A stretch of 41,734 nucleotides of DNA, taken from Candidatus Brocadia sp. Its GTDB lineage: Bacteria; Planctomycetota; Brocadiia; Brocadiales; Brocadiaceae. Positions 8,934 through 24,795 of this stretch are shown piece after piece. The stretch's first letter is position 1. Every line of letters begins with the position of its first letter. Location of the stretch: the NCBI GenBank assembly GCA_011525665.1, contig WYAU01000028.1, positions 1 to 41,734 on the forward strand. Direction: 5' to 3'. A model generated the notes under the pieces. That model saw only the letters and a list, made by a program, of their open reading frames with translations. It had not been told where the DNA came from and did not search any database. The translations under genes and the position numbers were made by a program.

Positions 8934-9323
8934 ATGTATGTGGGTATTGATATTATAGAAATAAAACGTATTGAAAAGCTGTTTTCTGCTAACGAAGGTT
9001 TTCTGAGAAGGATTTATACGGAAAAGGAAGTAGAGTATTGCAAGCAAAAGAAGAACAAATATCAGCATCTTGCGGCTCGTTTCGCCTCAAAAGAGGCGCT
9101 GTTTAAGGCGCTGGGGACCGGTTGGGTCGGTAAAATGAAATGGACGGACATTGAACTCTTGAATGATCAAACGGGCAGGCCTTATTTGAATCTTTATGGC
9201 AGTGTAAAAGAGATGGCTGATAAGAAATGTATTAACACTATTTCGGTATCATTATCCCACTGTCAGGATTACGCTATTGCACAGGTTTTGTTAGCGCCAA
9301 AGACAGTGCCGGAAGTGTTGTAG
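8934..9323 (+). CDS. acpS: Holo-[acyl-carrier-protein] synthase
   Basis: A 129-aa phosphopantetheinyl transferase that moves 4'-phosphopantetheine from CoA to the serine of apo-ACP. The N-terminal VGIDIIEIKRIEK carries the Mg-binding Asp (D6). FASKEALFKALGTG holds the second metal ligand (E54), and SVSLSHCQDYAIA is the usual C-terminal strand. Length is normal for the bacterial AcpS family. GAGGTGG precedes the ATG. Its position just before a radical SAM enzyme and two ketosynthase-like genes ties it to acyl-chain synthesis, but no ACP gene is visible in the window, so it may serve the whole cell. Confidence 0.93.
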   Translation: MYVGIDIIEIKRIEKLFSANEGFLRRIYTEKEVEYCKQKKNKYQHLAARFASKEALFKALGTGWVGKMKWTDIELLNDQTGRPYLNLYGSVKEMADKKCINTISVSLSHCQDYAIAQVLLAPKTVPEVL

Positions 9324-9502: not shown

Positions 9503-10984
9503 ATGAAAAGACTCGTATTAATCAATCCTCATCCGATTGGAAATGTTGGTGAGGAGAATGTCTCAGTATTAAATCAAATGCCGGTGAATCTCGGCTATCT
9601 GAAGGTATTAACACCAAAACACTGGCAGGTCGATATTATCGATGAAACCCAGGAGCTTGCGATTGATGAGAATACAGGAGACATTACTTTTGATGGGGCT
9701 GACCTCGTTGGCATTACGTCGGTAAGTTATCAGGCCCATAGGGCATATCATATAGCGACTGCCTGTAAAAAACGGAGCATACCGGTGATTATGGGTGGTA
9801 TCCATGCAACGAGTTACCCGGAAGAGGCGGCAAAATATGTGGACTGTGTTGTGACCAGGGAAGCGGTAACTACCTGGGAAAAGATCATCGGTGATTTTGA
9901 AAAGGGCCATCTCCAGAAAAGATACGATGGCGTTCTGACGCCCATGGAACTGTATCAGGGGTTGCGCCCCGATAGAAAATATTTGAAGGATAAATATAAG
10001 TACCGGTATTCGGGTATTATAACGACTGCTGGGTGTCCTTTTAGTTGTGAGTTTTGTTCGGTCCCTCAGTTTCAGGGAAGGAAATATCGCGAAAGGCCCA
10101 TCGAGGATGTCCTCGACGAGTTCGAATCCATTAAGGGTCAGTATCGCGGTTTGATCCTGACGGATGAAAACTTCTACGGGCACAGCAAAAAGTCCAATGA
10201 GCGCGTCCGCGACCTTTTTAAAGGTATGGTGGAAAGAGGCATTTACCAGAACTGGTTTGGTTTCACCTCCCTTAATATTTATAAAGACGATGAAACACTC
10301 GAATATATGAGGAAGAGCGGATGTGTTGGGGTATTAATCGGCATTGAATCCATTAATGAAGAAGCCCTGAAGACGATGAACAAGAACGTGAACTTGCGCA
10401 TCTCCATCGAGAATTATTTTGAGGCCATAGCGAATATCCGTAAACACGGTCTTGCCGTGTGGGGGACGATGGTCTTTGGAAATGATGCCGATACCCCGGA
10501 AACCTTTAGGCAAGTTGCCGATTTTGTCCTCGATTCCCATGTCGACATCATGACCTGTGGTATTTTATGTCCGTTCATCAACACGCCGCTGTATCACCGG
10601 TTGAACGGCGAGGGAAGACTTTTCAGGACACACTTCCCGGAAGATTGGAAGTATTACACTTCGCACCACCTCACCTATGTCCTGAAAAACATGTCCCTGC
10701 AGGAACTCATCGATGGATTTCAGTATTTGTATGACAGGATTTATGCTACGGAGGTATTGCGGCAGAGATTCCAGAATGCAAAAGAGGTGCTGAAAGACAA
10801 CATGAATGCCGCTCTGTTTGCATTCAGGGTTAATCTGGATTGGCAGACCGTTTACCAGCACCTGATTCAAAATCTCAAAGAATTGCAGGCATCCGGGTTC
10901 TATGACGAGGCCCTAAAACGCTATCATCAAATGAAAAAAGCCGGGAAAAAGGCGGAATTGACGCCGGCCGAAGTCTCCCCGTAG
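9503..10984 (+). CDS. B12-binding-domain radical SAM enzyme
   Basis: A 493-aa enzyme. The N-terminal ~150 residues form a cobalamin-binding-type Rossmann domain (INPHPIGN at the start, PVIMGGIHATSYPEEA at ~95-110). It lacks the classical DxHxxG motif, as is common in this family. The radical SAM core has the [4Fe-4S] motif CPFSCEFC (C178, C182, C185). GVLIGIESI and GTMVFGND are typical later core strands. The last ~120 residues are helical and unassigned. Related enzymes (BchE, HpnP/HpnR, ladderane-cluster members) do methylation, cyclisation or other unactivated C-C chemistry. The location between acpS and a ketosynthase pair suggests a lipid or polyketide substrate. The exact reaction cannot be read. 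GAAAAGGAACG precedes ATG 9503. Confidence 0.88.
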   Translation: MKRLVLINPHPIGNVGEENVSVLNQMPVNLGYLKVLTPKHWQVDIIDETQELAIDENTGDITFDGADLVGITSVSYQAHRAYHIATACKKRSIPVIMGGIHATSYPEEAAKYVDCVVTREAVTTWEKIIGDFEKGHLQKRYDGVLTPMELYQGLRPDRKYLKDKYKYRYSGIITTAGCPFSCEFCSVPQFQGRKYRERPIEDVLDEFESIKGQYRGLILTDENFYGHSKKSNERVRDLFKGMVERGIYQNWFGFTSLNIYKDDETLEYMRKSGCVGVLIGIESINEEALKTMNKNVNLRISIENYFEAIANIRKHGLAVWGTMVFGNDADTPETFRQVADFVLDSHVDIMTCGILCPFINTPLYHRLNGEGRLFRTHFPEDWKYYTSHHLTYVLKNMSLQELIDGFQYLYDRIYATEVLRQRFQNAKEVLKDNMNAALFAFRVNLDWQTVYQHLIQNLKELQASGFYDEALKRYHQMKKAGKKAELTPAEVSP

Positions 10985-11187: not shown

Positions 11188-12399
11188 ATGTCAAAGATTG
11201 TAATTACAGGTTTAGGATTGGTCACGCCCGTTGGGATTGGAGTCAAGCAATGCTGGGAATCATTCATCCAGGGCAGGAACGGAGCTAATGAGATGAAATC
11301 CTTCGATACCTCTAAATACAAGGTACACCGCTCGTGCGAGGTAAAGGATTTTCACCTGGATGTTGAGTTAGAAAACCAGATTAAGGAAAACACCATCCAT
11401 AAATATGTTTACTACGCAGCCAGAGAGGCATTGCAGGAAAGTGGTTTGTCAGGAGACAAAAAATTTAACCGGGAGCGATTTGGCATCACCATCGGGACGT
11501 TGGCAGCCGAATTGACTCCTTTTGAAAGGCTCCTGCGGTTAGATACCTTAAAAAAAGATAACGGTTTCGATAAAATTGTTGCAGCCGTTTATCCGCCCAA
11601 TTCGATCACCAATATCCTCGCTCACTATTTTGATTTTGAAGGACCAGCTATGGTCTCACTGAATGCCTGCTCATCGGGCAATCACGCCATTGCATGGGCT
11701 TGCGAACTCCTTTTGGAGAACAAGGTCGATGTGATGATGGTCGGTGGAGGCGACATGATTCCGCAGACGGAGTTTACCCATTTCCATAACCTCAAGGCGC
11801 TGGCACCAGATTGCTGTCAACCCTTCGATAAAAACCGTCAGGGGCTTATGATTGGCGAAGGGGCGGGGATATTGATTATGGAGCGTTATGAATTTGCAAA
11901 AAAACGTGGGGCGACGATTATTGCCGGGATGGCGGGTTATGGGTTAAGTTGCGATGGATTCCACATGACGGCGCCCCATCCTGAGGGTGACGGGGCAGTA
12001 AAGTGCATGAGCGATGCGTTAAAGATGTCAAAACTTTCGCCCCGGGAAATTGGTTACATCAATGCCCATGGTACGGGTACGCCGCACAATGACAAGACCG
12101 AGACTATTGCAATAAAACGTGTATTTAACGAAGGGGCATATAAGATTCCCTGCAGTTCTACCAAATCCATGATCGGTCATCTCATGGGCGCTGCCAGCGC
12201 GGTAGAGTCGGTCGTCTGCTGTCTGGTATTAAGGCACGGAATTTTACCTCCGACGATTAATTATGAAACCCCTGATCCGGAATGCGACCTCGATTACGTA
12301 CCCAATACAGCGCGGGAGTTAAAAGTGAATCATGTCTTAAATAATTCCTTTGCCTTTGGTGGCAATAACGCCACGACGATATTTAGCAGGATGGATTAA
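11188..12399 (+). CDS. Beta-ketoacyl-ACP synthase (FabF-like), catalytically complete
   Basis: A 403-aa thiolase-fold condensing enzyme. It extends an acyl chain by decarboxylative condensation with malonyl-ACP. The nucleophile lies in SLNACSSGNHAIAW (C161) and the two histidines in INAHGTGTPHND (H294) and KSMIGHLMGAAS (H331). The C-terminal NNSFAFGGNNAT is typical of FabF/KAS II and type II PKS KS-alpha. It begins MSKIVITGLGLVTP, as expected. Its partner 87 bp downstream is a ketosynthase that has lost the triad, so this gene is probably the active (alpha) half of a heterodimer, not the general FabF. Substrate chain length is unknown. Ladderane-type or polyketide synthesis are both possible. 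Confidence 0.93.
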   Translation: MSKIVITGLGLVTPVGIGVKQCWESFIQGRNGANEMKSFDTSKYKVHRSCEVKDFHLDVELENQIKENTIHKYVYYAAREALQESGLSGDKKFNRERFGITIGTLAAELTPFERLLRLDTLKKDNGFDKIVAAVYPPNSITNILAHYFDFEGPAMVSLNACSSGNHAIAWACELLLENKVDVMMVGGGDMIPQTEFTHFHNLKALAPDCCQPFDKNRQGLMIGEGAGILIMERYEFAKKRGATIIAGMAGYGLSCDGFHMTAPHPEGDGAVKCMSDALKMSKLSPREIGYINAHGTGTPHNDKTETIAIKRVFNEGAYKIPCSSTKSMIGHLMGAASAVESVVCCLVLRHGILPPTINYETPDPECDLDYVPNTARELKVNHVLNNSFAFGGNNATTIFSRMD

Positions 12400-12403
12400 G
12401 TAT

Positions 12404-12422
12404 GTCCCGGGCTTGCCGGGAC
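12404..12422. repeat. GC-rich hairpin between the two ketosynthase genes
   Basis: GTCCCGG and CCGGGAC form a perfect 7-bp stem with a 5-nt loop, 4 nt after the first ketosynthase stop codon. There is no T run, so it is more likely an RNA-stability or processing element, or a small repeat, than a terminator. Confidence 0.5.
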
Positions 12423-12486
12423 GTAGTGAACCCCAGCGTTCCCTGTGTGTCTTTGACTCTTTTATAGCTAAAGTGTTACAAAACGT

Positions 12487-13722
12487 ATGAAAAAACGAGT
12501 CGTCATTACTGGTTTAGGTGTTGTTTCTCCCCTTGGATGCGGGATAGAAACGTTCTGGAATAATCTTTTGGAGGGAAAATCCGGCATTGCTCCCCTGTCC
12601 TCTCTTGACCTCTCTCCCTATAAATGCAAGCTGGGAGGCGAGGTGAGAGATCTTAAACCCGAAATATACCTTGGTAGTAAGGGTCTAAAATATTTGAACA
12701 AGGGTACACGGTTTTTAGGGTCCGCAGCAAAGATGGCCATTGATGACGGAAAACTCCCAACGGATGGTTCATTGTCGGAACAGATGGGCATTGTCATTGG
12801 CTCGTCTCTGGGAAATTTTTCAGAAACGACGGATTATTTTTATGAAATTATCAGGAATAATCCATCTGAATTATCACCCATGCTCAGTTATGACGTTGCC
12901 TTGAATTCTTCCATCAATTACGTATCGGTTATCTTTAAAATCAGGGGACTTGCGCGTACCATATCTGCGGGTTTTACATCAAGTACCGATGCCATAGGAG
13001 ACGCATACAAGATGATTCAGCGTGATATGGCGAAGGTAATTATTGCAGGCGGTGTCGAGCAGATATCCATTGACTTGTATCTGATATTCTCTATAAGGGG
13101 TCTGCTGTCCGGCCTTGACGGTACAAAAGAGGCAAGCTTACCCTTTGACAGGGAAAGGAATGGTTTTGTCATGGCAGAGGGCAGTTGTGTGGTTATCCTG
13201 GAAGAACTCCAGCATGCCCTGGACAGGGGAGCCCATATCTATGCAGAGATAAAAGGCTTTGGCACTGCCTTCGCGGGCGGTAAAAAATATTCAGAGGAGA
13301 TAAGAGTGCGTCGTGCTGAAAGGTCCATGCATGAAGCAATGGAAGACGCCGGGGTAAAAAGAGGGGACGTTAATCTCATCAGTGCAAATGCCAATGGATG
13401 CAAGGTGCAGGATGCAGTCGAAGCAAAGGCTATTCAGTCTTTGTTTGGTACGAACAACAATACTTTCTCTGTCTCCGCAATCAAATCGAATCTGGGTGAG
13501 GCCTATGGCACATCAGGTGCTGCCCAGCTCATTTCCACAGTCATGTCAATCAACACAGGCCTTATACCCCATATCATCAATCACAACAGTACGGATCCAG
13601 AAATCAGTCTGAGCCTTATCCTGGAAAAACCTCTCAAAAAAGAGATCAACTACGCAATCATAAACAACAGGGATTATGATGGGAATAATTCATGTTTGGT
13701 GGTAAGCAAGTTTGGCGAATAG
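12487..13722 (+). CDS. Ketosynthase-like protein lacking the catalytic triad (chain-length-factor-like)
   Basis: A 411-aa protein of the FabF fold (MKKRVVITGLGVVSPLG at the N-terminus, IIAGGVEQI, PFDRERNGFVMAEGS). The active site is gone. The Cys position reads ISAGFTSSTDAIG, with Phe at 163. The first His is Asn303 in SANANGCKVQDAVEAKA. The second is Glu338 in IKSNLGEAYGTSGAA, while the Lys (K333) is kept. The fold motifs around these sites are preserved, so this is not random decay. KS-beta/chain length factors of type II PKS likewise lack the Cys and pair with an active KS-alpha, and this gene follows an active ketosynthase in the same direction. It probably forms a heterodimer controlling chain length or shape. 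The last ~40 residues diverge. A pseudo-enzyme with another role cannot be excluded. Confidence 0.88.
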   Translation: MKKRVVITGLGVVSPLGCGIETFWNNLLEGKSGIAPLSSLDLSPYKCKLGGEVRDLKPEIYLGSKGLKYLNKGTRFLGSAAKMAIDDGKLPTDGSLSEQMGIVIGSSLGNFSETTDYFYEIIRNNPSELSPMLSYDVALNSSINYVSVIFKIRGLARTISAGFTSSTDAIGDAYKMIQRDMAKVIIAGGVEQISIDLYLIFSIRGLLSGLDGTKEASLPFDRERNGFVMAEGSCVVILEELQHALDRGAHIYAEIKGFGTAFAGGKKYSEEIRVRRAERSMHEAMEDAGVKRGDVNLISANANGCKVQDAVEAKAIQSLFGTNNNTFSVSAIKSNLGEAYGTSGAAQLISTVMSINTGLIPHIINHNSTDPEISLSLILEKPLKKEINYAIINNRDYDGNNSCLVVSKFGE

Positions 13723-13767
13723 GAGAACAATGAAAAGCAGGAAGGTGTTGATAATGCTGATTGTCTG

Positions 13768-14427
13768 TTACCTGAGGGCGTTTGCAATTTTTCTGCCCAG
13801 TTCTCTTGCGGCATTCAGGGCATCCTGCTGGTCTTCAAACCGGTTTATCCCGACAGATTCCACGGTAGCATCATGGCCAAACATCATCTTCACACCTGAC
13901 ATCTTGCAGTCGTTGCCGTATCCACATTTGATACAGGGGACGTTTCCCTGTATCTTGACGGCGCCTACAAAGTTCATACCCTCTTCCATCATGTAAAACA
14001 TAATGGCATTTATGCCCATATCGCCGGCGGGAGGCAACGCCTTGTTTTTATCAGGAACCGCACAGGTGACAATAGCGCCACCCGGCTTGCCGGCCATGAG
14101 GCCATGAATATGGCGGAGGGGATAGAGCCGTTCCAGAAATGCCTTTGTCAGGGAGTCTATCGTACTATACGGTGTATAGCAAGCGATAATCAAGGCATCG
14201 GCATCTTTTGCCTTTTCTGCCAGAGGAATTCCATCATCGCGGATGTTTGTACATTTGTTTGTTTTTACACAACCGAGACATGCCCTGCAGGGAGTAATGG
14301 AGTATTCTGCCAGTTTTATGAATTCCGTTTCCAGTCCGGTGGCCTCCAAGGCCGCTTTTAGTGCCCTATCGGTATTGCTGTCATAAACAGGAGACCCGGA
14401 AACACCAAGGACTTTTCGGACGGACAT
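13768..14427 (-). CDS. Iron-sulfur flavoprotein, NADPH-dependent FMN reductase family
   Basis: A 219-aa flavodoxin-like protein. VLGVSGSPVYDSNTDRALKA is the FMN phosphate loop of the family. CRACLGCVKTNKC (C47, C50, C53, C59) is the compact cysteine motif of Isf-type iron-sulfur flavoproteins, which binds a [4Fe-4S] cluster. YTPYSTIDSLTKAFLERL is the usual helix after the second FMN loop. Two more Cys pairs lie near residues 160-175 (CIKCGYGNDC), which is unusual and could bind a further metal. Such proteins shuttle electrons from ferredoxin to small acceptors. The start is ATG 14427, with AAGGAG 7 nt before it; the frame also has a TTG 6 bp upstream. It converges on the ketosynthase pair (45-bp gap) and so is not in their operon. 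Confidence 0.82.
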   Translation of the reverse strand: MSVRKVLGVSGSPVYDSNTDRALKAALEATGLETEFIKLAEYSITPCRACLGCVKTNKCTNIRDDGIPLAEKAKDADALIIACYTPYSTIDSLTKAFLERLYPLRHIHGLMAGKPGGAIVTCAVPDKNKALPPAGDMGINAIMFYMMEEGMNFVGAVKIQGNVPCIKCGYGNDCKMSGVKMMFGHDATVESVGINRFEDQQDALNAARELGRKIANALR

Positions 14428-14517
14428 GATCAATCTCCTTCACGGTCTGTTATGCTGCCAAAAGGCAAAAAAAGGGGAAATTACGCTGAAAATTCCTCCC
14501 CGTGTGCCGGACAAACG

Positions 14518-15174
14518 TCACGTATGTGATTCAAAACAAAGCGTCTCCGGTGATATAAGTATTCTTACCTTTCTGCCCTCGATTTTTAATCTGCCCTCTG
14601 CAAAGAGGCGTATTGCCTCGGGGTATGCCTCGCATTCCTCTTTAAAGACCCGCTCGGCGAGGGTATCCGGTGTGTCGTCATCAAGGACAGGGACAGTCCT
14701 CTGGATAATGATAGGGCCGTTGTCATAGATGTTATCGGCAAAATGTACCGTGCATCCGGAAACCTTTGCGCCGTAATTGATGACGGCCTCATGCACCTTT
14801 CTGCCGTAATATTGATGACCGCAAAAGGCGGGGATAAGACCCGGATGGATATTCATAACCTTTGCTTTGTACTTTTCAGGAATTTTATAAAAATGCACAA
14901 AACCGGCAAGGGTAACGAGGTCAATGGGGTACTTATCCAGTTCGGACGTAATGGCGTTACTGAAAGCATCCGTATCGCGGTAATCTGTGTAAGGTACCAC
15001 GGCCGTGGGAATATTGTGTTTCTTTGCACGTTCCAGGCCGGGGACGTTCGCCTTGCTGCTGATTACGACTTGAAGAGAAGCATGTAACTTCCCCGCTTCT
15101 ATGCGGTCTATAAAATTTTGAAGGGTATTGCCGCCGCCCGAAATCAACACCCCCAGGTTTAATTTTTTTATCAT
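14518..15174 (-). CDS. purN: Phosphoribosylglycinamide formyltransferase (GAR transformylase)
   Basis: A 218-aa enzyme of de novo purine synthesis that transfers a formyl group from 10-formyl-THF to GAR. LNLGVLISGGGNTLQNFID is the phosphate-binding N-terminus. MNIHPGLIPAF carries the catalytic Asn108 and His110, and DNIYDNGPII the catalytic Asp151. The frame is open further upstream (to 15291), but the family N-terminus fits ATG 15174. It is slightly longer than the E. coli enzyme at the C-terminus. It is divergent from hemL (110-bp gap) and 90 bp behind the flavoprotein gene when read on the minus strand. Confidence 0.93.
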   Translation of the reverse strand: MIKKLNLGVLISGGGNTLQNFIDRIEAGKLHASLQVVISSKANVPGLERAKKHNIPTAVVPYTDYRDTDAFSNAITSELDKYPIDLVTLAGFVHFYKIPEKYKAKVMNIHPGLIPAFCGHQYYGRKVHEAVINYGAKVSGCTVHFADNIYDNGPIIIQRTVPVLDDDTPDTLAERVFKEECEAYPEAIRLFAEGRLKIEGRKVRILISPETLCFESHT

Positions 15175-15190
15175 AAAATAAGCAAAAATA

Positions 15191-15219
15191 TTGACAACGA
15201 ATTTGCGATTTGCTATTAT
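15191..15219 (+). promoter_or_regulatory. Sigma-70 promoter of hemL
   Basis: TTGACA (15191-15196), a 17-bp spacer and TATTAT (15214-15219) form a near-consensus vegetative promoter in the gap between divergent purN and hemL. Transcription should start near 15226, about 60 bp before the hemL start. Confidence 0.7.
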
Positions 15220-15284
15220 GCTCGTCTTCTTGGTCTTGATGAAGACTTTCCAGAGAATACATAAAATATAAAAATAGCGTGTAT

Positions 15285-16577
15285 ATGTCAAAGATAATTA
15301 TTGAGAAATCAAAAAAGGCATTTGCCGAGGCACAGAGTTTTATACCGGGTGGAGTTAACAGTCCTGTCAGGGCCTTTGGCGCCGTAGGCGGTACGCCGAT
15401 TTTCATAAAGTCAGGATCGGGTTGCTATCTGACCGATGTTGACGGAAATAGATATATAGATTATGTGGGTTCGTGGGGGCCGCTTATTTTGGGGCACGCC
15501 GATCCGCGGGTGGTAAAAAAAATTCATGAGGCAGTTGCCAACGGGACGAGTTACGGCGCGCCAACTGAGTTAGAGGTACAACTTGCCCAGATCATTAAAG
15601 AGGCCATGCCATCGATAGAAAAGGTGCGGATGGTAAACTCCGGTACAGAGGCCACGATGAGCGCCATACGTTTAGCCAGGGGATTTACAAAACGGGATGG
15701 AGTGATTAAGTTCGAAGGGTGTTACCATGGACATGTGGATAGTTTGCTTATCCAGGCTGGTTCGGGTGCGACAACGTTAGGGACACCCACCAGTCCGGGT
15801 ATTCCGCAAGATTTTGTTAAGCATACCATATCCCTTCCCTATAACGATATAGATGCGGTAAATGAGGCTTGTTCAAAACGGGGAAAGGACATTGCGTGTA
15901 TTATTGTTGAGGCAGTTGCAGGTAATATGGGGGTTGTACCTCCTGAAAAAGGTTATTTGGAGGGGCTGAGAGAAATAACCAAAAAACATGGTATTGTGCT
16001 GATATTTGACGAGGTTATGACTGGTTTCAGGGTTGCGCATGGCGGTGTGCAGTCGCTCTATAACATTACACCTGACTTAACCACGCTGGGAAAGATTATT
16101 GGCGGGGGTCTCCCGGTTGGGGCGTATGGTGGTAAGAAAGAGATTATGGACAGTATCTCCCCGGTTGGTCCTGTATACCAGGCGGGCACGTTGTCGGGCA
16201 ATCCTGTGGCCATGACTGCTGGTATTGCCACCCTGGAAATACTTAGGGATGGTACTATTTATAAAACCCTGGAAGAAAAATCGAAACGGTTGGCAGCGGG
16301 TATGGAAAAGGCATGCAAGGATGCCGGGATACCGGCCTATCATACCCGTGTCGGTTCGATGTTGTGTACCTTTTTTACCGACCAGGCTGTTACGGATTAT
16401 ACTACTGCCAGGAAGAGCGATACAAAACGGTATGCAAAGTTTTTCCACGGCATGCTGGAAAGGGGGTTCTATTTTGCACCTTCACAGTTCGAGGCAGTAT
16501 TTGTTTCAACTGCTCATGGTGAAAAAGAAATTGATGCGACCATTGAAGCCCTCAGGGAAGTAATAAAAGGTTTTTAG
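15285..16577 (+). CDS. hemL: Glutamate-1-semialdehyde 2,1-aminomutase
   Basis: A 430-aa PLP enzyme converting glutamate-1-semialdehyde to 5-aminolevulinate in the C5 tetrapyrrole pathway. [13 protein letters not shown] at the N-terminus, [30 protein letters not shown] and [11 protein letters not shown] are all family signatures. The PLP lysine is K270 in [16 protein letters not shown]. Length is normal. ATG 15285 is chosen; an in-frame GTG lies 6 bp upstream and neither has a strong ribosome site. A heme-rich metabolism would need this pathway; precorrin-6A reductase at 28859 uses the same precursor branch. Confidence 0.96.
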
Positions 16578-16693: not shown

Positions 16694-17323
16694 ATGAATA
16701 CAATAAATGTAAATAGCGACTTAAAGGGTGTACTTGAACGTATCAGTGGTATGTGCTTCAAGGTAGAGTCGATGTTGAGCCTTTGCATGGATGGTTTTAT
16801 GAAACATAAGATCAAATTGATCGATGAGGCGAAAAAGGTGAGCCAGGCCATACATAACGAAGAGAATGAATTGATAAGTCTGCTCAGCAATAAGGCCGCA
16901 AAGTCTGACATGGATAAGGAGTTGATAAAATCTATGATGGCGGTCGTAGGCCATATTGAAATGGCAACGAATGGCTTGGATGTCATCCTTCAAAATGTGC
17001 GGATTAAAGTGGGCGAAGGGGTACTGTTCAGCGACAAAGGTGTGAATGAGATATCTCATCTTTTTAAGGAAACCCTCAATGTATTAAAGACGGCCGGTGA
17101 TGCCATTTTGACTAAAAACGAGATCCTCAAAAAATATGTCACTGATAAATATGTACGTCTCGCTCAAACTGTTGAGGCCTATTCAGAAGAGCATGAGAAC
17201 CGATTAATTAAAGGGATATGTCAGCCCAAAAGCTCTTCGGTATATCTAAATATCGTTGACTCTCTGGTGAAGGTAGTTTGGCATGTGAAACAAGCTATAA
17301 ACAGGTTTTTTGGAAGCAGGTGA
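16694..17323 (+). CDS. PhoU-like helical protein preceding the ATP synthase operon
   Basis: A 209-aa, all-helical, soluble protein resembling the PhoU domain (PF01895), as in PhoU and the tail of NptA-type Na/phosphate cotransporters. It has two similar halves with charged heptad-like helices (KLIDEAKKVSQAIHNEENEL; VNEISHLFKETLNVL). No transmembrane segment or Pst genes are nearby. A strong purine-rich ribosome site (AAGGAGGGAAGG) precedes ATG 16694. The gene ends 4 nt before the first ATP synthase gene, so it is cotranscribed and probably translationally coupled with atpZ. A weak promoter-like TTGATA/TTTATA pair lies at 16601-16631. PhoU proteins sense or control phosphate uptake, so a link between phosphate status and ATP synthase is conceivable but inferred. 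Confidence 0.7.
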   Translation: MNTINVNSDLKGVLERISGMCFKVESMLSLCMDGFMKHKIKLIDEAKKVSQAIHNEENELISLLSNKAAKSDMDKELIKSMMAVVGHIEMATNGLDVILQNVRIKVGEGVLFSDKGVNEISHLFKETLNVLKTAGDAILTKNEILKKYVTDKYVRLAQTVEAYSEEHENRLIKGICQPKSSSVYLNIVDSLVKVVWHVKQAINRFFGSR

Positions 17324-17327
17324 TGGT

Positions 17328-17567
17328 TTGCCCCTCATCAGAAAAGATAAAGATAATGAAACGTATCGCATCATAGGGTTGGTTGGAAGTTTCGGTTTTA
17401 CGACTGCAGGTGCCATAGCAGGTGGGTATTTTCTGGGAAGTTATCTTGATAAAAAACTCAATACATACCCCTGGTTCATGTTAGTCTTTATTATGTTAGG
17501 GATTATTGGAAGTTTTATAGAATTTTTTAAGGTAATAAAGAAGTTGTTGGGTGAAAATAAAAAATAA
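17328..17567 (+). CDS. atpZ: AtpZ/AtpI-type ATP synthase accessory membrane protein
   Basis: A 79-aa protein with two membrane helices joined by GSYLDKKL. It fits the ATPase_gene1 (PF09527) family found first in many atp operons, thought to help c-ring assembly or Mg/Ca transport together with AtpI. The frame opens at a TTG at 17310, but AGCAGG at 17315-17320 is 7 nt before TTG 17328, just past the PhoU-like stop, so 17328 is preferred. It is followed 3 nt later by the second accessory gene. Confidence 0.75.
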   Translation: MPLIRKDKDNETYRIIGLVGSFGFTTAGAIAGGYFLGSYLDKKLNTYPWFMLVFIMLGIIGSFIEFFKVIKKLLGENKK

Positions 17568-17570
17568 ACT

Positions 17571-18044
17571 ATGATAACGGGCGATAAAACAAAAAATTTT
17601 TTGTTGCTTGATGATGGTTTCCCCGACAGGGTACTGAAGACATCATTTTATTTGTCGCTCATAGTAATTGTCTGTTCCCTATCGTATATGTCTTTCATGG
17701 GAACGGTGAGTGTTGCGGTGGGTTGTTGCATTAGCCTTATTTTATATAAAATGTTGTGGTGGACGATCCAATATGCGGTACGTCATAAGAGGTCTGAAAT
17801 TAAGGGTTTTTTTCTCAAGGTCAGTCTGGTAAAGTACGGTATCGTTGGGGTAATGCTGTTTTCCGCCTGTGTATTCCTGGAGGTCAATGTAGTTGCCCTG
17901 GCGCTGGGCTTGAGCATTGTGCTGATTGTGCTTGTTATGAAAATCGGAAGTAAATTATTGGTAAATTATATGAATAGGGCTGTTAAGGTTTCTTCTCGGA
18001 ATATTGGCGGTATTTCTGCCAATACAAGTCAGAAAGGGGTGTAA
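17571..18044 (+). CDS. atpI: ATP synthase subunit I-like membrane protein
   Basis: A 157-aa protein with four predicted membrane helices (about residues 24-43, 44-62, 83-105 and 107-130) and a basic loop KRSEIKGFFLKVSLVKYG, as in the ATP-synt_I (PF03899) family. It is a c-ring assembly factor by family knowledge. The position between atpZ and atpB is standard. Sequence conservation in this family is low, so the call depends partly on location. Confidence 0.7.
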   Translation: MITGDKTKNFLLLDDGFPDRVLKTSFYLSLIVIVCSLSYMSFMGTVSVAVGCCISLILYKMLWWTIQYAVRHKRSEIKGFFLKVSLVKYGIVGVMLFSACVFLEVNVVALALGLSIVLIVLVMKIGSKLLVNYMNRAVKVSSRNIGGISANTSQKGV

Positions 18045-18049
18045 GTTAC

Positions 18050-18808
18050 GTGTCTGGTGGTGAAAGTGAACTAACAACGGAATTACCTTCGTTTGTCGAT
18101 TTTGCGCCGATAGATGCCCATAGTCAATTTTTTGGACTCACCAAGCACGAGTGGGTGCCGATAATTATGTCTGCCACAATAATTATATTTCTGGGCCTGT
18201 TTTCAATACTTGCGACATGGAGGTTGAAAAGAGTACCCGGAAGGCTTCAGTCCTTGTTGGAAATTATTGTGGAAGGGCTCGAAAACTTTACCAAATCGCA
18301 GATGGGACGTGCTGCGGGTCCATTTATCCCGTTTATCGGGACGTTATTCATATACATCTTTGCTATGAATATGCTGGGGCAGATACCGCTCTTTCATTCC
18401 CCCACGAGTAATTTTAACACAACCATTTCTTTAACGTTAATCGTGTTCTTTGTTACCCATTTTCAGGGGGTCAAGAACAATGGTGTTGTGGGGTATCTCA
18501 AGCATATGGCCGGGAAACCAATCTGGCTTGCCCCGTTAGTATTTCCCCTGCACTTGATGCAGGAACTTCTCTCCCGGCCTCTGTCGCTTTCCATGCGTCT
18601 CTTTGGAAATATCATGGGTGAGGATACGATTATTGCGATATTCATCGGTCTTTCGCCGTTTCTCCTGGGTCTTATTCCGATCCCCATGCATTTACCGATG
18701 GTTTTCCTTGCCCTCTTAGGAAGTACCATACAGGCGATGATATTTTCTCTTTTGGCGAGTTTTTATATTGCGGGTGCAATTGGCATCCACGAGGAAGAGC
18801 ATCATTAA
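18050..18808 (+). CDS. atpB: ATP synthase Fo subunit a
   Basis: A 252-aa membrane subunit that forms the ion half-channels. The key arginine is R183 in SLSMRLFGNIMGEDTI, on the helix facing the c-ring. HLMQELLSRPLSL precedes it, and the C-terminus has IQAMIFSLLASFYIAGAI, the usual last helix. The start is GTG 18050, 6 nt after the atpI stop, with AAAGGGG upstream. The protein ends in a short acidic/His tail (EEEHH). Confidence 0.95.
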   Translation: MSGGESELTTELPSFVDFAPIDAHSQFFGLTKHEWVPIIMSATIIIFLGLFSILATWRLKRVPGRLQSLLEIIVEGLENFTKSQMGRAAGPFIPFIGTLFIYIFAMNMLGQIPLFHSPTSNFNTTISLTLIVFFVTHFQGVKNNGVVGYLKHMAGKPIWLAPLVFPLHLMQELLSRPLSLSMRLFGNIMGEDTIIAIFIGLSPFLLGLIPIPMHLPMVFLALLGSTIQAMIFSLLASFYIAGAIGIHEEEHH

Positions 18809-18834
18809 ATTTTTTTTAAAAAGGAGGTTGGGTC

Positions 18835-19107
18835 GTGATTTATTTTGCGTTATTGGCAATAGCGGTGGCTTTGATAGCAATTGCGGCGTTTGGTTGCGGT
18901 ATTGGGCAGGGTATTGCGGTTTATGGTGCAGCGAACAGCATGGCCAGGCAACCGGAGATTGCCGGAAAGGTGCAGTTGGTTATGTTTGTGGGTCTGGCTT
19001 TCATCGAGTCTTTGACAATTTATTCCCTGATGATGTCATTTATTCTTATGGGTAAATTACCAAAGACAGAAGCAGTTCTTGAGTTAATTCAGCACGCCGT
19101 TAAATAG
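18835..19107 (+). CDS. atpE: ATP synthase Fo subunit c
   Basis: A 90-aa hairpin of two membrane helices that builds the rotor ring. Helix 1 has the glycine pattern FGCGIGQGIAVYGA, the polar loop is ARQPE, and the ion-binding carboxylate is E58 in AFIESLTIYSLMM. Q25 in helix 1 plus E58, S59 and Y63 resemble the ligands of sodium-binding rings, but residue 60 is Leu where the clearest Na rings have Thr. Many proton-type rings share this mixed set, so ion choice is open. GTG start with AAGGAGG upstream at good spacing. It is longer at the C-terminus than the E. coli protein. Confidence 0.95.
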   Translation: MIYFALLAIAVALIAIAAFGCGIGQGIAVYGAANSMARQPEIAGKVQLVMFVGLAFIESLTIYSLMMSFILMGKLPKTEAVLELIQHAVK

Positions 19108-19125
19108 GCGTAGGAGGAAATTGGA

Positions 19126-19635
19126 TTGGATATTTTAAATACCCTTGGAATTAATCTCAAACCCATAATCATCCAGGGTGTAGGTTTCTTAATACTGCTT
19201 TTTGTCCTCAAAAAGTTCCTCTTCGGCAAGATTTCTGCCATGATAAAGGCCAGAACTGATGAGGTGAAAAATACCTATGAAAAAACCGAAAAGGACAGGA
19301 CAGAGGCTGAGAGGCTGTTGCTGGAATATCAAAGGAGGCTTGCAGAGGCTGAATCAGAAGCGGCAAGAAGAATACAGGAGTCTATCAACGAAGGAAATCG
19401 GATTAGTGGGGAGATTGTTAAACGTGCCAAGGAAGAGGTAGAGCAGATCAGGGTAAAGGCGCAAGAAAGCATTGAGCAGGAACGGAAGAAGGCCCTGACG
19501 GAAATCAGGAACCAGGTAGTAACTCTTTCTATCTTGGCTTCTTCAAAGATCATTCAGCAATCTATAAGTCAAAAGACGGCAGAAAAGCTCGTTGACGACT
19601 TTATTGAAGAAATAGGGGAATTGAGTGTTAGATAA
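19126..19635 (+). CDS. atpF: ATP synthase Fo subunit b
   Basis: A 169-aa peripheral stalk subunit. One membrane helix (about residues 10-30) is followed by a long charged coiled coil (EKTEKDRTEAERLLLEYQRR and onward). The start is TTG 19126, 8 nt after AGGAGG. The end overlaps the delta gene by 11 nt. Only one b-type gene is present, so the stalk is a b homodimer. Confidence 0.92.
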   Translation: MDILNTLGINLKPIIIQGVGFLILLFVLKKFLFGKISAMIKARTDEVKNTYEKTEKDRTEAERLLLEYQRRLAEAESEAARRIQESINEGNRISGEIVKRAKEEVEQIRVKAQESIEQERKKALTEIRNQVVTLSILASSKIIQQSISQKTAEKLVDDFIEEIGELSVR

Positions 19636-20173
19636 AAGTGTCGCAATTACATTTATCAATGCCCTTCTGGAAGTAGCTTCAAAGAAGGGACAGTTTGAGC
19701 AGATTGAAAAAGATTTGGATCTGGTTTGTGACGTAATCGTAAAACATGATAACCTTAAGAAGGTCTTGTTTCATCCGTCGATTTCACGAAGCGACAAGAA
19801 GGATTTGGTCAAAAATGTATTCGGTAAAACGGTTTCTCCCCTTATGACGAACTTTTTGTATTTGTTGGTTGACCGCCGCAAGGAAGAGATTTTGGAATTT
19901 ATCCCTGATGTATATAAAACGGTCACTGATGAAAAGAAGGGGGTCATAAAAGCCACGATACAGACGGTTATGCCTTTGACAGGGGACCGGCTGGATACTT
20001 TTAAGAAACAGTTGAAAAAGATTACGGGTAAAACGGTAGAGTTAGAGGTTGTCCAGAACCCGGATATTCTGGGGGGGATGGTAATCCAGATCGGCAACAA
20101 AATGATAGATGGAAGTGTTGCAAATAGATTAAAAAATCTAAAAACCAGATTGCTGTCATTGCGCACGGCATAG
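19625..20173 (+). CDS. atpH: ATP synthase F1 subunit delta
   Basis: A 182-aa stalk subunit joining b to the top of F1. The N-terminal helical domain (ITFINALLEVASKKGQFEQI) and the C-terminal part (LEVVQNPDILGGMVIQIGNKMIDGS) match the OSCP/delta family. GTG start inside the end of atpF, so translation is probably coupled. A 250-bp gap with a strong hairpin follows before atpA. Confidence 0.93.
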   Translation: MLDKSVAITFINALLEVASKKGQFEQIEKDLDLVCDVIVKHDNLKKVLFHPSISRSDKKDLVKNVFGKTVSPLMTNFLYLLVDRRKEEILEFIPDVYKTVTDEKKGVIKATIQTVMPLTGDRLDTFKKQLKKITGKTVELEVVQNPDILGGMVIQIGNKMIDGSVANRLKNLKTRLLSLRTA

Positions 20174-20269
20174 GTTTTTGTCTTCTTAAATAGAGAATTA
20201 CTCATAAGACTTGGTTCGCACATCTGTCGCTGTAATCAATTTTCAGGTTTGATGAAATGATTGAATTAA

Positions 20270-20294
20270 GTGGCAGGAGTTTTTCTCCTGCCAC
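20270..20294 (+). terminator. Hairpin inside the atp operon (atpH-atpA gap)
   Basis: GTGGCAGGAG (20270-20279) and CTCCTGCCAC (20285-20294) form a perfect 10-bp stem with a five-T loop. Only a short T tract (ACATTTT) follows. It may be an attenuator or RNA-processing/stability element separating the Fo-delta genes from atpA. The rest of 20174-20423 contains no gene and no clear promoter. Confidence 0.6.
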
Positions 20295-20423
20295 ACATTT
20301 TGGTAATTAAGAATTTCGATAGCTAAATTCTTCAGGCTTGTTGTATTTCAGAATGGCATAGGGAATAGCAAAACGTCATTCTGTGCAAAGTGAAGAATCT
20401 TATTTACAAGAGGAGTAGGTAAT

Positions 20424-21938
20424 ATGGCATTAGCATCCACGGATATTACTTCAATCATTAAAAAAGAGATTGAAGGGTATGAAGAAAAACTAAAATTAGA
20501 AAACGTCGGACACGTCATGCAGGTTGGTGACGGGGTTGCCCGTATTTACGGGCTTGATGATTGTTTGTCCAGTGAGCTGTTAGAATTCCCTGACAATGTA
20601 TACGGTATCGCCATGAACCTCGAGGAAGATAACGTAGGGGCTATTCTCCTTGGTTCTGATGAAAAAATTAAAGAAGGTGATATCGTAAAGACTACCGGGA
20701 AAATCGTCCAGGTACCTGTGGGAAAGGCTTTATTAGGCCGTGTAGTGAATGCTCTGGGTCAGCCTATTGATGGGAAAGGACCTATTGCTGCAGATCAATA
20801 CAGGCCAATCGAAGGTTCTTCTCCCAACGTGGTTGAGAGACAGCCTGTAAAAGAGCCATTACAGACCGGTATCAAGGCAATTGATGCAATGATTCCCATC
20901 GGTAGGGGTCAGCGTGAGCTTATTATCGGTGACAGACAAACGGGAAAGACCGCAATTCTTATTGATACCATAATTAACCAGCGTGAATCAGGGGTCTATT
21001 GCATTTATGTAGCGATCGGTCAAAAGATGTCCACGGTTGCCGACGTCGTTAAGACACTGGAAGACAATAAGGTGATGGACATAAGTATTGTTGTGGTAGC
21101 CTCTGCATCTGACCCTGCACCGCTTCAGTATATTGCACCCTATGCAGGGTGTGCCATGGGCGAATATTTTAGAGATAACGGAATGCATGCCGTGGTTATG
21201 TATGACGATTTGTATAAACATGCAATTGCTTATCGTCAAATTTCATTGCTCTTACGACGTCCGCCCGGTCGTGAAGCATTTCCGGGGGATATTTTCAACC
21301 TGCACTCACGTCTCCTGGAAAGGGCAGCCAAACTGAGCAGCGAGCTCGGCGGCGGTTCTTTAACAGCACTGCCGGTTGTGGAAACTCAGGGTGGTGATTA
21401 TTCAGCCTATATTCCTACAAACGTTATTTCCATTACTGATGGTCAGATCTACCTGGAAGGTGATTTGTTTAATGCCGGTATACGTCCTGCTATTTCGGTA
21501 GGTCTGTCGGTATCCAGGGTCGGTGGAAATGCCCAGATTTCAGCAATGAAAAAGGTCGCCGGCACGTTGCGGCTGACCTTAGCCCAATACAGGGAATTAG
21601 CCTCTTTTGCACAGTTTGGTTCTGAACTGGATAAATTTACTCAGGCACAGTTGTCCAAGGGCAGTAGGCTTGTAGAGCTGTTGAAACAGCCGCAGTATGC
21701 GCCGGTGCCGGTAGAAGAGCAGATTATGGCAATCTTTGCCGGTATTAATGGATATCTGGATGACGTTGCTGTAGATAAGGTTAGGGTCTTTGAAAAGGAA
21801 TTCCTGAAGTTTATGAGGGAGAAGTATGCCGCTATTGGTATCGAGATTAAAGAGAAGAAGAAACTCGATCCGGAAATAACGAATAAATTAGAGAATGCTA
21901 TCAAAGAATTCAAACAAATCTTTGCAAAAAAGGGCTAG
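20424..21938 (+). CDS. atpA: ATP synthase F1 subunit alpha
   Basis: A 504-aa non-catalytic nucleotide-binding subunit. The P-loop is GDRQTGKTA (from residue 170). [11 protein letters not shown] in the N-terminal barrel, and [15 protein letters not shown] with the arginine finger, are typical. Full length and standard. AAGAGGAG precedes ATG 20424. atpG follows after 3 nt. Confidence 0.98.
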
Positions 21939-21941
21939 GGA

Positions 21942-22817
21942 ATGCTGAGTACGAGAGAAATTAAACAACGAATCAGAAGTATTACGAGCATCAAGCAGAT
22001 TACCCGTGCCATGGAAATGGTGGCGGCAAGCAGGCTCAAAAAGGTTGAGTCAAGGGTTCTTGCCTCACGTACCTATACGGAAAAGATGCACTCCGTTTTA
22101 AGCCACCTGGTTTCTTCACTTGAAAGTACCCATCCATGGTTTGCAGAGAAAGATCAGGCGATTCCTGTTATAAAAGTCGTCCTGATTACGGCGGATAAAG
22201 GGCTTTGTGGTGCCTATAACAATAATATAATCCAGAAAGTTGTGAAATTTATTAAGGAAAAGACAGGCAAGGAGATCAAACTTACCCTTATTGGGAAGAA
22301 GGGATACCTGTATTTTTCGAAAGGAAGGTACGCTTCTCTCATAGAAAAGTACATTCCTGAGAGTGTGGAGAAACTTGGATACAGTCACGTGCTGGCATTG
22401 GCTGACCAGTTGATAAAAGGATATGAGGCAAATGAGTTCGGAGAATTGCATATATTCTTCACAAAGTTTCATACGGTAATGCAATCTTTTCCGACAAGTA
22501 TGCGATTGTTGCCCATAGAAAAGGGGACGTTCGGATCAGAGGAGAAAAAACCCGGTGGTGAATATATTTTTGAACCGTCTCCGGTGCAGATCATTAGTCA
22601 TCTATTCCCGAAATTTGTGGAAACCCGGCTTTATCAGTGTGTCCTGGAATCCCTGACATCCGAGTATGCTGCCAGGCGTGTAGCCATGATTGCGGCGACA
22701 GAGAATGCCGGCGAAATGATTGATGAATTGACCAGCTCATACAATAAGGCGCGGCAGGCGGCAATCACCAAGGAATTACTGGAAGTTGTCTCTGGTGCCG
22801 AGGCCCTTGTACGATAA
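21942..22817 (+). CDS. atpG: ATP synthase F1 subunit gamma
   Basis: A 291-aa central shaft. The N-terminal helix has IKQRIRSITSIKQITRAMEMVAAS, the middle has ITADKGLCGAYN, and the C-terminal helix has RRVAMIAATENAGEMIDEL, all family signatures. The coupling methionine and overall length are normal. A 147-bp gap without any recognised gene separates it from atpD. Confidence 0.97.
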   Translation: MLSTREIKQRIRSITSIKQITRAMEMVAASRLKKVESRVLASRTYTEKMHSVLSHLVSSLESTHPWFAEKDQAIPVIKVVLITADKGLCGAYNNNIIQKVVKFIKEKTGKEIKLTLIGKKGYLYFSKGRYASLIEKYIPESVEKLGYSHVLALADQLIKGYEANEFGELHIFFTKFHTVMQSFPTSMRLLPIEKGTFGSEEKKPGGEYIFEPSPVQIISHLFPKFVETRLYQCVLESLTSEYAARRVAMIAATENAGEMIDELTSSYNKARQAAITKELLEVVSGAEALVR

Positions 22818-22925
22818 TGGAATAAAATATCACAGGAAACGCGGGAAGAAGGTTGGGATTGAAATTAATTGTTTACAATAGGCGAAAATAGTTAAAAGTT
22901 TTTCCTCCCCATACTCTGTGGTTAA

Positions 22926-24389
<1,464 letters not shown>

Positions 24390-24390
24390 A

Positions 24391-24795
24391 ATGGCTAAAA
24401 CATTCAAACTGGAGATTATTACACCTGAAAAAGTTGTTTATAGTGATTCGGTTCAAAGTATTTCTGCCGATGGTACTGAGGGTTCCTTTGGCGTCCTTGC
24501 GGACCACGCACCATTGATTACGGAATTGAAAACGAGTATTTTGACAGTAAATGACGCAAATAACAAGACAATACGGCTTGCACTCGACAGGGGTTTTTTA
24601 GAGGTCATGGCAAACAACGTCGTTGTTTTGAGCGATGCGTGCGTTACAGAAGGCGATGTGAATGTTGAAAAAGTGAGCGCTGAAAAAGATGCTGCGGAAA
24701 AGACTTTATCCAGTGGCGGGAGTGCCGAGGAGAAAGAAAAGGCGCAAGCCATTCTCACGCGAGCTAACACGTGGCTAAAGCTTGCGAATAAATAG
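24391..24795 (+). CDS. atpC: ATP synthase F1 subunit epsilon
   Basis: A 134-aa rotor subunit. The beta-barrel domain has LEIITPEKVVYSD and EGSFGVLADHAPLIT, and a C-terminal helical hairpin is present (~90-134), so the inhibitory arm is complete. ATG 24391 directly follows the atpD stop; an in-frame GTG 9 bp upstream lies inside atpD. A terminator follows 18 bp later, marking the operon end. Confidence 0.95.
   Translation: MAKTFKLEIITPEKVVYSDSVQSISADGTEGSFGVLADHAPLITELKTSILTVNDANNKTIRLALDRGFLEVMANNVVVLSDACVTEGDVNVEKVSAEKDAAEKTLSSGGSAEEKEKAQAILTRANTWLKLANK

Follow-up and report, generated by a model that had tools for sequence, protein, structure and literature searches.

The locus

The window, by which we mean the whole stretch of 41,734 nucleotides analysed here, is one contig (C16) of a 3.63 Mb genome (G000). 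Its forward strand carries a short gene block in which an intact ketosynthase (KS) is followed by a second protein of the same fold that lacks the catalytic residues (KS'). The block and its immediate surroundings comprise the following features:

8934..9323, forward strand: AcpS, holo-ACP synthase (kuste2802-like); Pfam ACPS, 5.7e-20; opens the conserved block
9503..10984, forward strand: B12-binding radical SAM protein (kuste2803-like); Pfam Radical_SAM, B12-binding and DUF4070
11188..12399, forward strand: intact KS (kuste2804-like) with C161/H294/K326/H331; nearest solved chain 9s5h_B, E 4e-121
12400..12486, forward strand: gap of 87 bases between KS and KS'; GC-rich hairpin at 12404-12422 (z -2.57), without a T run directly after it
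12487..13722, forward strand: KS' (kuste2805-like), catalytically dead, with F163, N301, K333, E338 and Q347; nearest solved chain 9s5h_C, E 7e-86
13768-14433, other strand: flavodoxin-like protein, named by eye
14518-15291, other strand: PurN, named by eye

The two opposite-strand genes that come after KS' indicate that the block ends with it. The block corresponds to the kuste2802-2803-2804-2805 set of Kuenenia stuttgartiensis, and its last gene is the orthologue of kuste2805, as judged by matching residues, neighbours and anammox host. The hairpin in the gap reads GTCCCGG...CCGGGAC, and genomes in which KS and KS' abut have no space for it. A few kb downstream of this lipid block lies an ATP synthase operon (AtpI-like to epsilon, 17310-24795).

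The active site of KS'

The KS' reading frame (12487-13722) is intact and codes for 411 amino acids, which the N- and C-terminal ketoacyl-synt domains of Pfam (PF00109 and PF02801) cover as a full-length ketosynthase fold. Direct reading gives F163, N301, N303, K333 and E338; the catalytic Cys and both catalytic His are gone, with Phe163, Asn301 and Glu338 in their stead, while Lys333 is kept. The first-pass annotation had named Phe163, Asn303 and Glu338 as the replacements. Phe163 and Glu338 stand, but in alignment it is Asn301 that falls on the first catalytic His (FabF His298), Asn303 occupying the position of the conserved Thr300, which matches the Asn298/Asn300 of an earlier tabulation (PMC2649909). 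That annotation was right in reporting that the active-site Lys (K333) is preserved and that KS' directly follows a ketosynthase with a complete triad, C161/H294/H331, both of which are confirmed by direct reading. A second-shell Glu (E342 in the numbering of PMC2649909) is likewise replaced, by Q347. Read from its residues, KS' would be excluded from normal chain elongation. As a FabF/FabB condensing enzyme it was rejected, the triad being absent and the TIGR03150 score being 319 bits against a cut-off of 494. The NCBIfam search with KS' returned only FabF-type and other ketosynthase models, all of them below cut-off, and no model named for a chain length factor (CLF) was matched in it.

Conservation across the order

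Of 59 genomes from the order to which this one belongs, 54 encode a KS' orthologue that shares about 50% identity or more, is complete or almost complete and has no internal stop. Among the 54 distinct orthologues, drawn from five family groups of this one order, F163, K333, E338 and Q347 are invariant and N301 is present in 53; the Cys/His/His triad is intact in all 46 distinct partner KS. The median dN/dS is about 0.09 for KS' and about 0.05 for KS, and KS' is under purifying selection. That the residue changes might reflect sequencing error or gene decay is rejected as scarcely credible, given their presence in 54/54 orthologues that lack internal stops and have a dN/dS of about 0.09; the first refuting condition set by the first-pass annotation, absence of the changes from close homologues, thus does not apply. 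No match to KS' at E <= 1e-80 was found among 231 sampled Planctomycetota outside the order. HZS-alpha (PF18582) is encoded in 39 of the 59 genomes, in four of the five family groups, and the order therefore appears to be the anammox order. A search of the window's own genome for PF18582 gave no match, perhaps because the assembly is fragmented; the anammox host first proposed for this DNA is borne out at the level of the order.

The order AcpS, B12 radical SAM, KS, KS' is kept in the family groups wherever the contig is long enough, and the radical SAM protein in this place is 68-96% identical throughout the order. The stop of KS and the start of KS' are often adjacent in other anammox genomes, or overlap by 4 bases. 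Where the contig extends far enough, KS' almost always adjoins an intact KS; in one genome (G042) the two lie 4.4 kb apart, so that tight coupling is not essential. The correlation of KS' and KS distances (0.977, against 0.949 with the neighbouring radical SAM) was set aside as evidence of partner choice, as it is too weak: the one value barely exceeds the other, and shared ancestry would give such values.

Other ketosynthase pairs in the same genome

The window pair is not the only one in this genome. A second pair lies on contig C106 (KS at 13451, KS' at 14727), followed by two further genes, the second encoding a radical SAM protein, and this arrangement matches kuste3605-3608; the radical SAM protein of the window is 54% identical to that of this paralogous cluster. 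A third pair, of a dead and an intact ketosynthase in reversed order, is found on contig C5 (reading frames near 11985-13211 and 13328-14551 of locus L081). Its dead member, possibly kuste3348-like, has Ala at the Cys position with a Cys beside it; Ser and Phe take the places of the two His. A further ketosynthase at L081:16774-18003 keeps the Cys and the first His and has Gln at the second His; it branches beside the KS' clade (82/92).

Descent of the pair

In a maximum-likelihood tree of 67 ketosynthases, KS' sequences form one clade (100/100) and their KS partners another (99/98), which answers in the affirmative the question, raised in the first-pass annotation, whether KS' forms a clade of its own among FabF homologues. 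Both clades hold three matching lineages, namely anammox 2804/2805, anammox 3605/3606 and metagenome-assembled genomes (MAGs) of Omnitrophota, and in both the Omnitrophota are sister to 3605/3606 (97/92 for KS' and 90/62 for KS). Given these congruent trees, the KS/KS' pair descends as a unit. A tree in which KS' 2805 and KS 2804 form a joint clade is rejected (AU p 8.7e-5), and KS' is thus no local tandem duplicate of its neighbour. KS' and actinobacterial CLFs are separate in the best tree, although a tree that joins them is not rejected (AU p 0.146). An aryl polyene protein in the CLF position was included as a reference; its branch is too long to place.

The Omnitrophota KS' carry Phe at 163, Ser or Ala at 301, Lys at 333 and Glu at 338. 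An intact KS, FabG and ACP are encoded in their clusters, some of which add FabZ or an FAD oxidoreductase (products named by eye). The members with the Cys-to-Phe change, all in clusters with FabG, ACP and intact KS, are:

L099:5001-6254, KS'
L102:671-1912, KS'
L113:1308-2549, KS'
L141:4995-6116, KS'

The last of these is shorter (373 amino acids) and may miss a piece around residue 215; its cluster also holds FabZ and an upstream gene resembling a B12-type radical SAM protein.

Structural evidence for pairing

Modelled alone, KS' adopts the ketosynthase fold (pLDDT 87.9, pTM 0.90; Z about 56-60 to FabF and to chains of KS/CLF entries) except for segment 109-140, a part that lies at the dimer face of ketosynthases. 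Because KS and KS' share a reading frame, it was possible to model a fusion that runs through the intervening stops. The fusion exists only as a model and forces the chains together; within that limit, AlphaFold2 predicts a KS-CLF pseudodimer (pTM 0.90), in which the pLDDT of segment 109-140 rises from about 40 to 66-81. The top PDB match of the whole fusion, and the best over both halves, is the KS-CLF of PfaC (6riw, TM 0.79), which is part of one polypeptide of a multidomain PUFA synthase and matches at 19% identity; 6riw is favoured in such a search because it is a natural single chain of two ketosynthases. The fused model supports a KS/KS' heterodimer without proving it.

Stronger support for pairing comes from the chain content of PDB entries 9s5h and 9s5i. 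Among solved structures, their chains come out closest to the window pair in sequence search, and they hold equal numbers of an intact KS (chain B) and a dead KS' (chain C); 9s5i also holds the matching ACP. They represent the paralogous Kuste3605/3606 type, whose cluster carries ACP and FabZ. Their KS' is close to that encoded on contig C106 of the present genome and 38% identical to the window KS', and has V/N/E at the catalytic positions, Val rather than Phe.

Relation to earlier work and to known partner systems

The first-pass annotation had judged that a dedicated KS/CLF-like heterodimer here would be new or little described, and comparison with the literature supports this at most in part. 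Rattray et al. (2009) tabulated F163/N298/N300/C302/K328/E333 for Kuste2805 and interpreted it as an unusual FabB that takes a different substrate (PMC2649909). Kuste2805 was expressed in 2016 as a "non-canonical FabB" (PMC4790861), and a 2022 study of anammox origins placed kuste2805, 3603, 3605 and 3606 among the candidate ladderane genes and stated that four candidates may have been gained when anammox arose (PMC9387917). Paralogous chains are present in 9s5h/9s5i, for which no paper was found in the literature searched. Kuste2804/Kuste2805 and the window pair are alike in locus order (AcpS, B12 radical SAM, FabF, KS') and in active-site residues; the accessible part of the 2009 paper does not present Kuste2805 as a partner of Kuste2804 or as a CLF-like subunit. 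CLF-like sequences in Planctomycetes and Omnitrophica appear in a 2023 catalogue (PMC10132072). A literature search that covered few subscription journals found no statement of a CLF reading of 2804/2805, of order-wide pairing or of co-descent with Omnitrophota. What the present analysis adds, as worked out here, is the fixed pairing across the anammox order and the sister pair in Omnitrophota.

The KS/CLF of type II PKS (actinorhodin, 1tqy; ishigamide Iga11-Iga12, 6kxd) likewise consists of an adjacent KS and a dead partner of the same fold. By residue pattern KS' was rejected as an actinobacterial type II PKS CLF: four sampled actinobacterial CLFs have Q, H or G at 163, D at 301 and R at 338, whereas KS' has an invariant Phe at 163. 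At F111/T114/F118 of KS', alignments place F/T/F of the actinorhodin CLF (F109/T112/F116), its known positions of chain-length control. T114 is invariant among KS', position 111 is F or Y and position 118 is F or T; the correspondence is suggestive only. Intact KS and dead partner also form heterodimers acting on ACP-bound chains in the aryl polyene (ApeO-ApeC) and cispentacin (AmcF-AmcG) systems (PMC8358021, PMC10698177). KS' differs from both of these partners in being full length with its ketosynthase motifs retained, AbApeC being reduced to one thiolase domain and AmcG having no known motifs.

A proposed CLF-like heterodimer and its rivals

We consider it likely, with a probability of roughly three in four, that KS (11188-12399) and KS' (12487-13722) form an obligate heterodimer in which KS' is a non-catalytic, CLF-like subunit that shapes the pocket. 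The KS/CLF-like logic first put forward for this locus is supported by the conserved tandem, the co-descent of the pair, the predicted pseudodimer and the presence of both paralogous chains in 9s5h/9s5i. The heterodimer of the window pair, the shaping of its tunnel and its product are what we infer from these lines of evidence. KS would do the chemistry, with Cys161 taking the growing acyl chain from ACP and the two His decarboxylating malonyl-ACP. KS', with Phe for Cys, would load no chain and, with Asn and Glu for the two His, would perform no decarboxylation; it would close the dimer, form the far wall of the acyl tunnel, contribute to the surface on which ACP docks and thereby determine, as a chain length factor does, which chain is made. 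Probably the enzyme makes a special acyl chain, perhaps a polyunsaturated one, for anammox lipids.

Other roles for KS' have to be weighed against a CLF-like subunit. It could be a cyclisation factor like AmcG, such that after extension by KS the polar Asn301 and Glu338 help to close a ring. Ladderane lipids are polycyclic, AmcF-AmcG pairs an intact KS with a motif-lacking partner for one C2 extension and ring closure (PMC10698177), and N301 and E338 are almost invariant, which seems more than a passive pocket would require. We nevertheless think this unlikely, for AmcG has no known motifs whereas KS' has the full-length ketosynthase fold, the NCBIfam AmcF model scores well below cut-off on both KS and KS', and no chemistry has been established for ring closure in ladderanes. 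Alternatively KS' could have a chemistry of its own, for example bringing into fatty acid synthesis a ladderane unit preformed outside FASII (Rattray et al. 2009). The lost residues, which rule out normal elongation, and the invariance of Lys333 and an acidic 338 speak for it (PMC2649909), yet position 163 offers no nucleophile, its Phe being invariant, and the fixed neighbour with a full triad accounts for condensation without KS'; we regard it as decidedly unlikely. We hold it to be more improbable still that KS' forms homodimers instead of pairing with KS and serves, as a pseudoenzyme, to bind ACP or to regulate other lipid enzymes: the 4.4 kb separation in G042 would agree with independence, but the pair-wise co-descent and the joint presence of the paralogous chains in 9s5h/9s5i do not.

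Implications for anammox lipid biology

We know of no established route by which anammox bacteria build ladderane lipids, and a role for KS/KS' in them is putative only. Counting against the heterodimer, an E. coli study in which kuste2804 and kuste2805 were placed in different operons obtained mostly insoluble protein from kuste2802-2805 and saw no new fatty acid (PMC4790861). Should KS and KS' prove to be a single enzyme, co-expression would be called for; AmcG, for comparison, was soluble only in the presence of AmcF. Omnitrophota are a phylum that lies outside the anammox order, and they provide a comparison set with which the chain-building parts may be separated from the parts for ladderane chemistry. 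It is possible, if on the doubtful side, that anammox bacteria and some Omnitrophota share a KS/KS' heterodimer lineage apart from the classical type II PKS CLFs, in whose dead subunit the nucleophile site is plugged (by Phe, Val or Ile, and in some by Glu) and which makes an unusual polyunsaturated acyl chain, in anammox bacteria the ladderane precursor. Were this true, a polyene-type type II synthase would stand at the start of the ladderane pathway.
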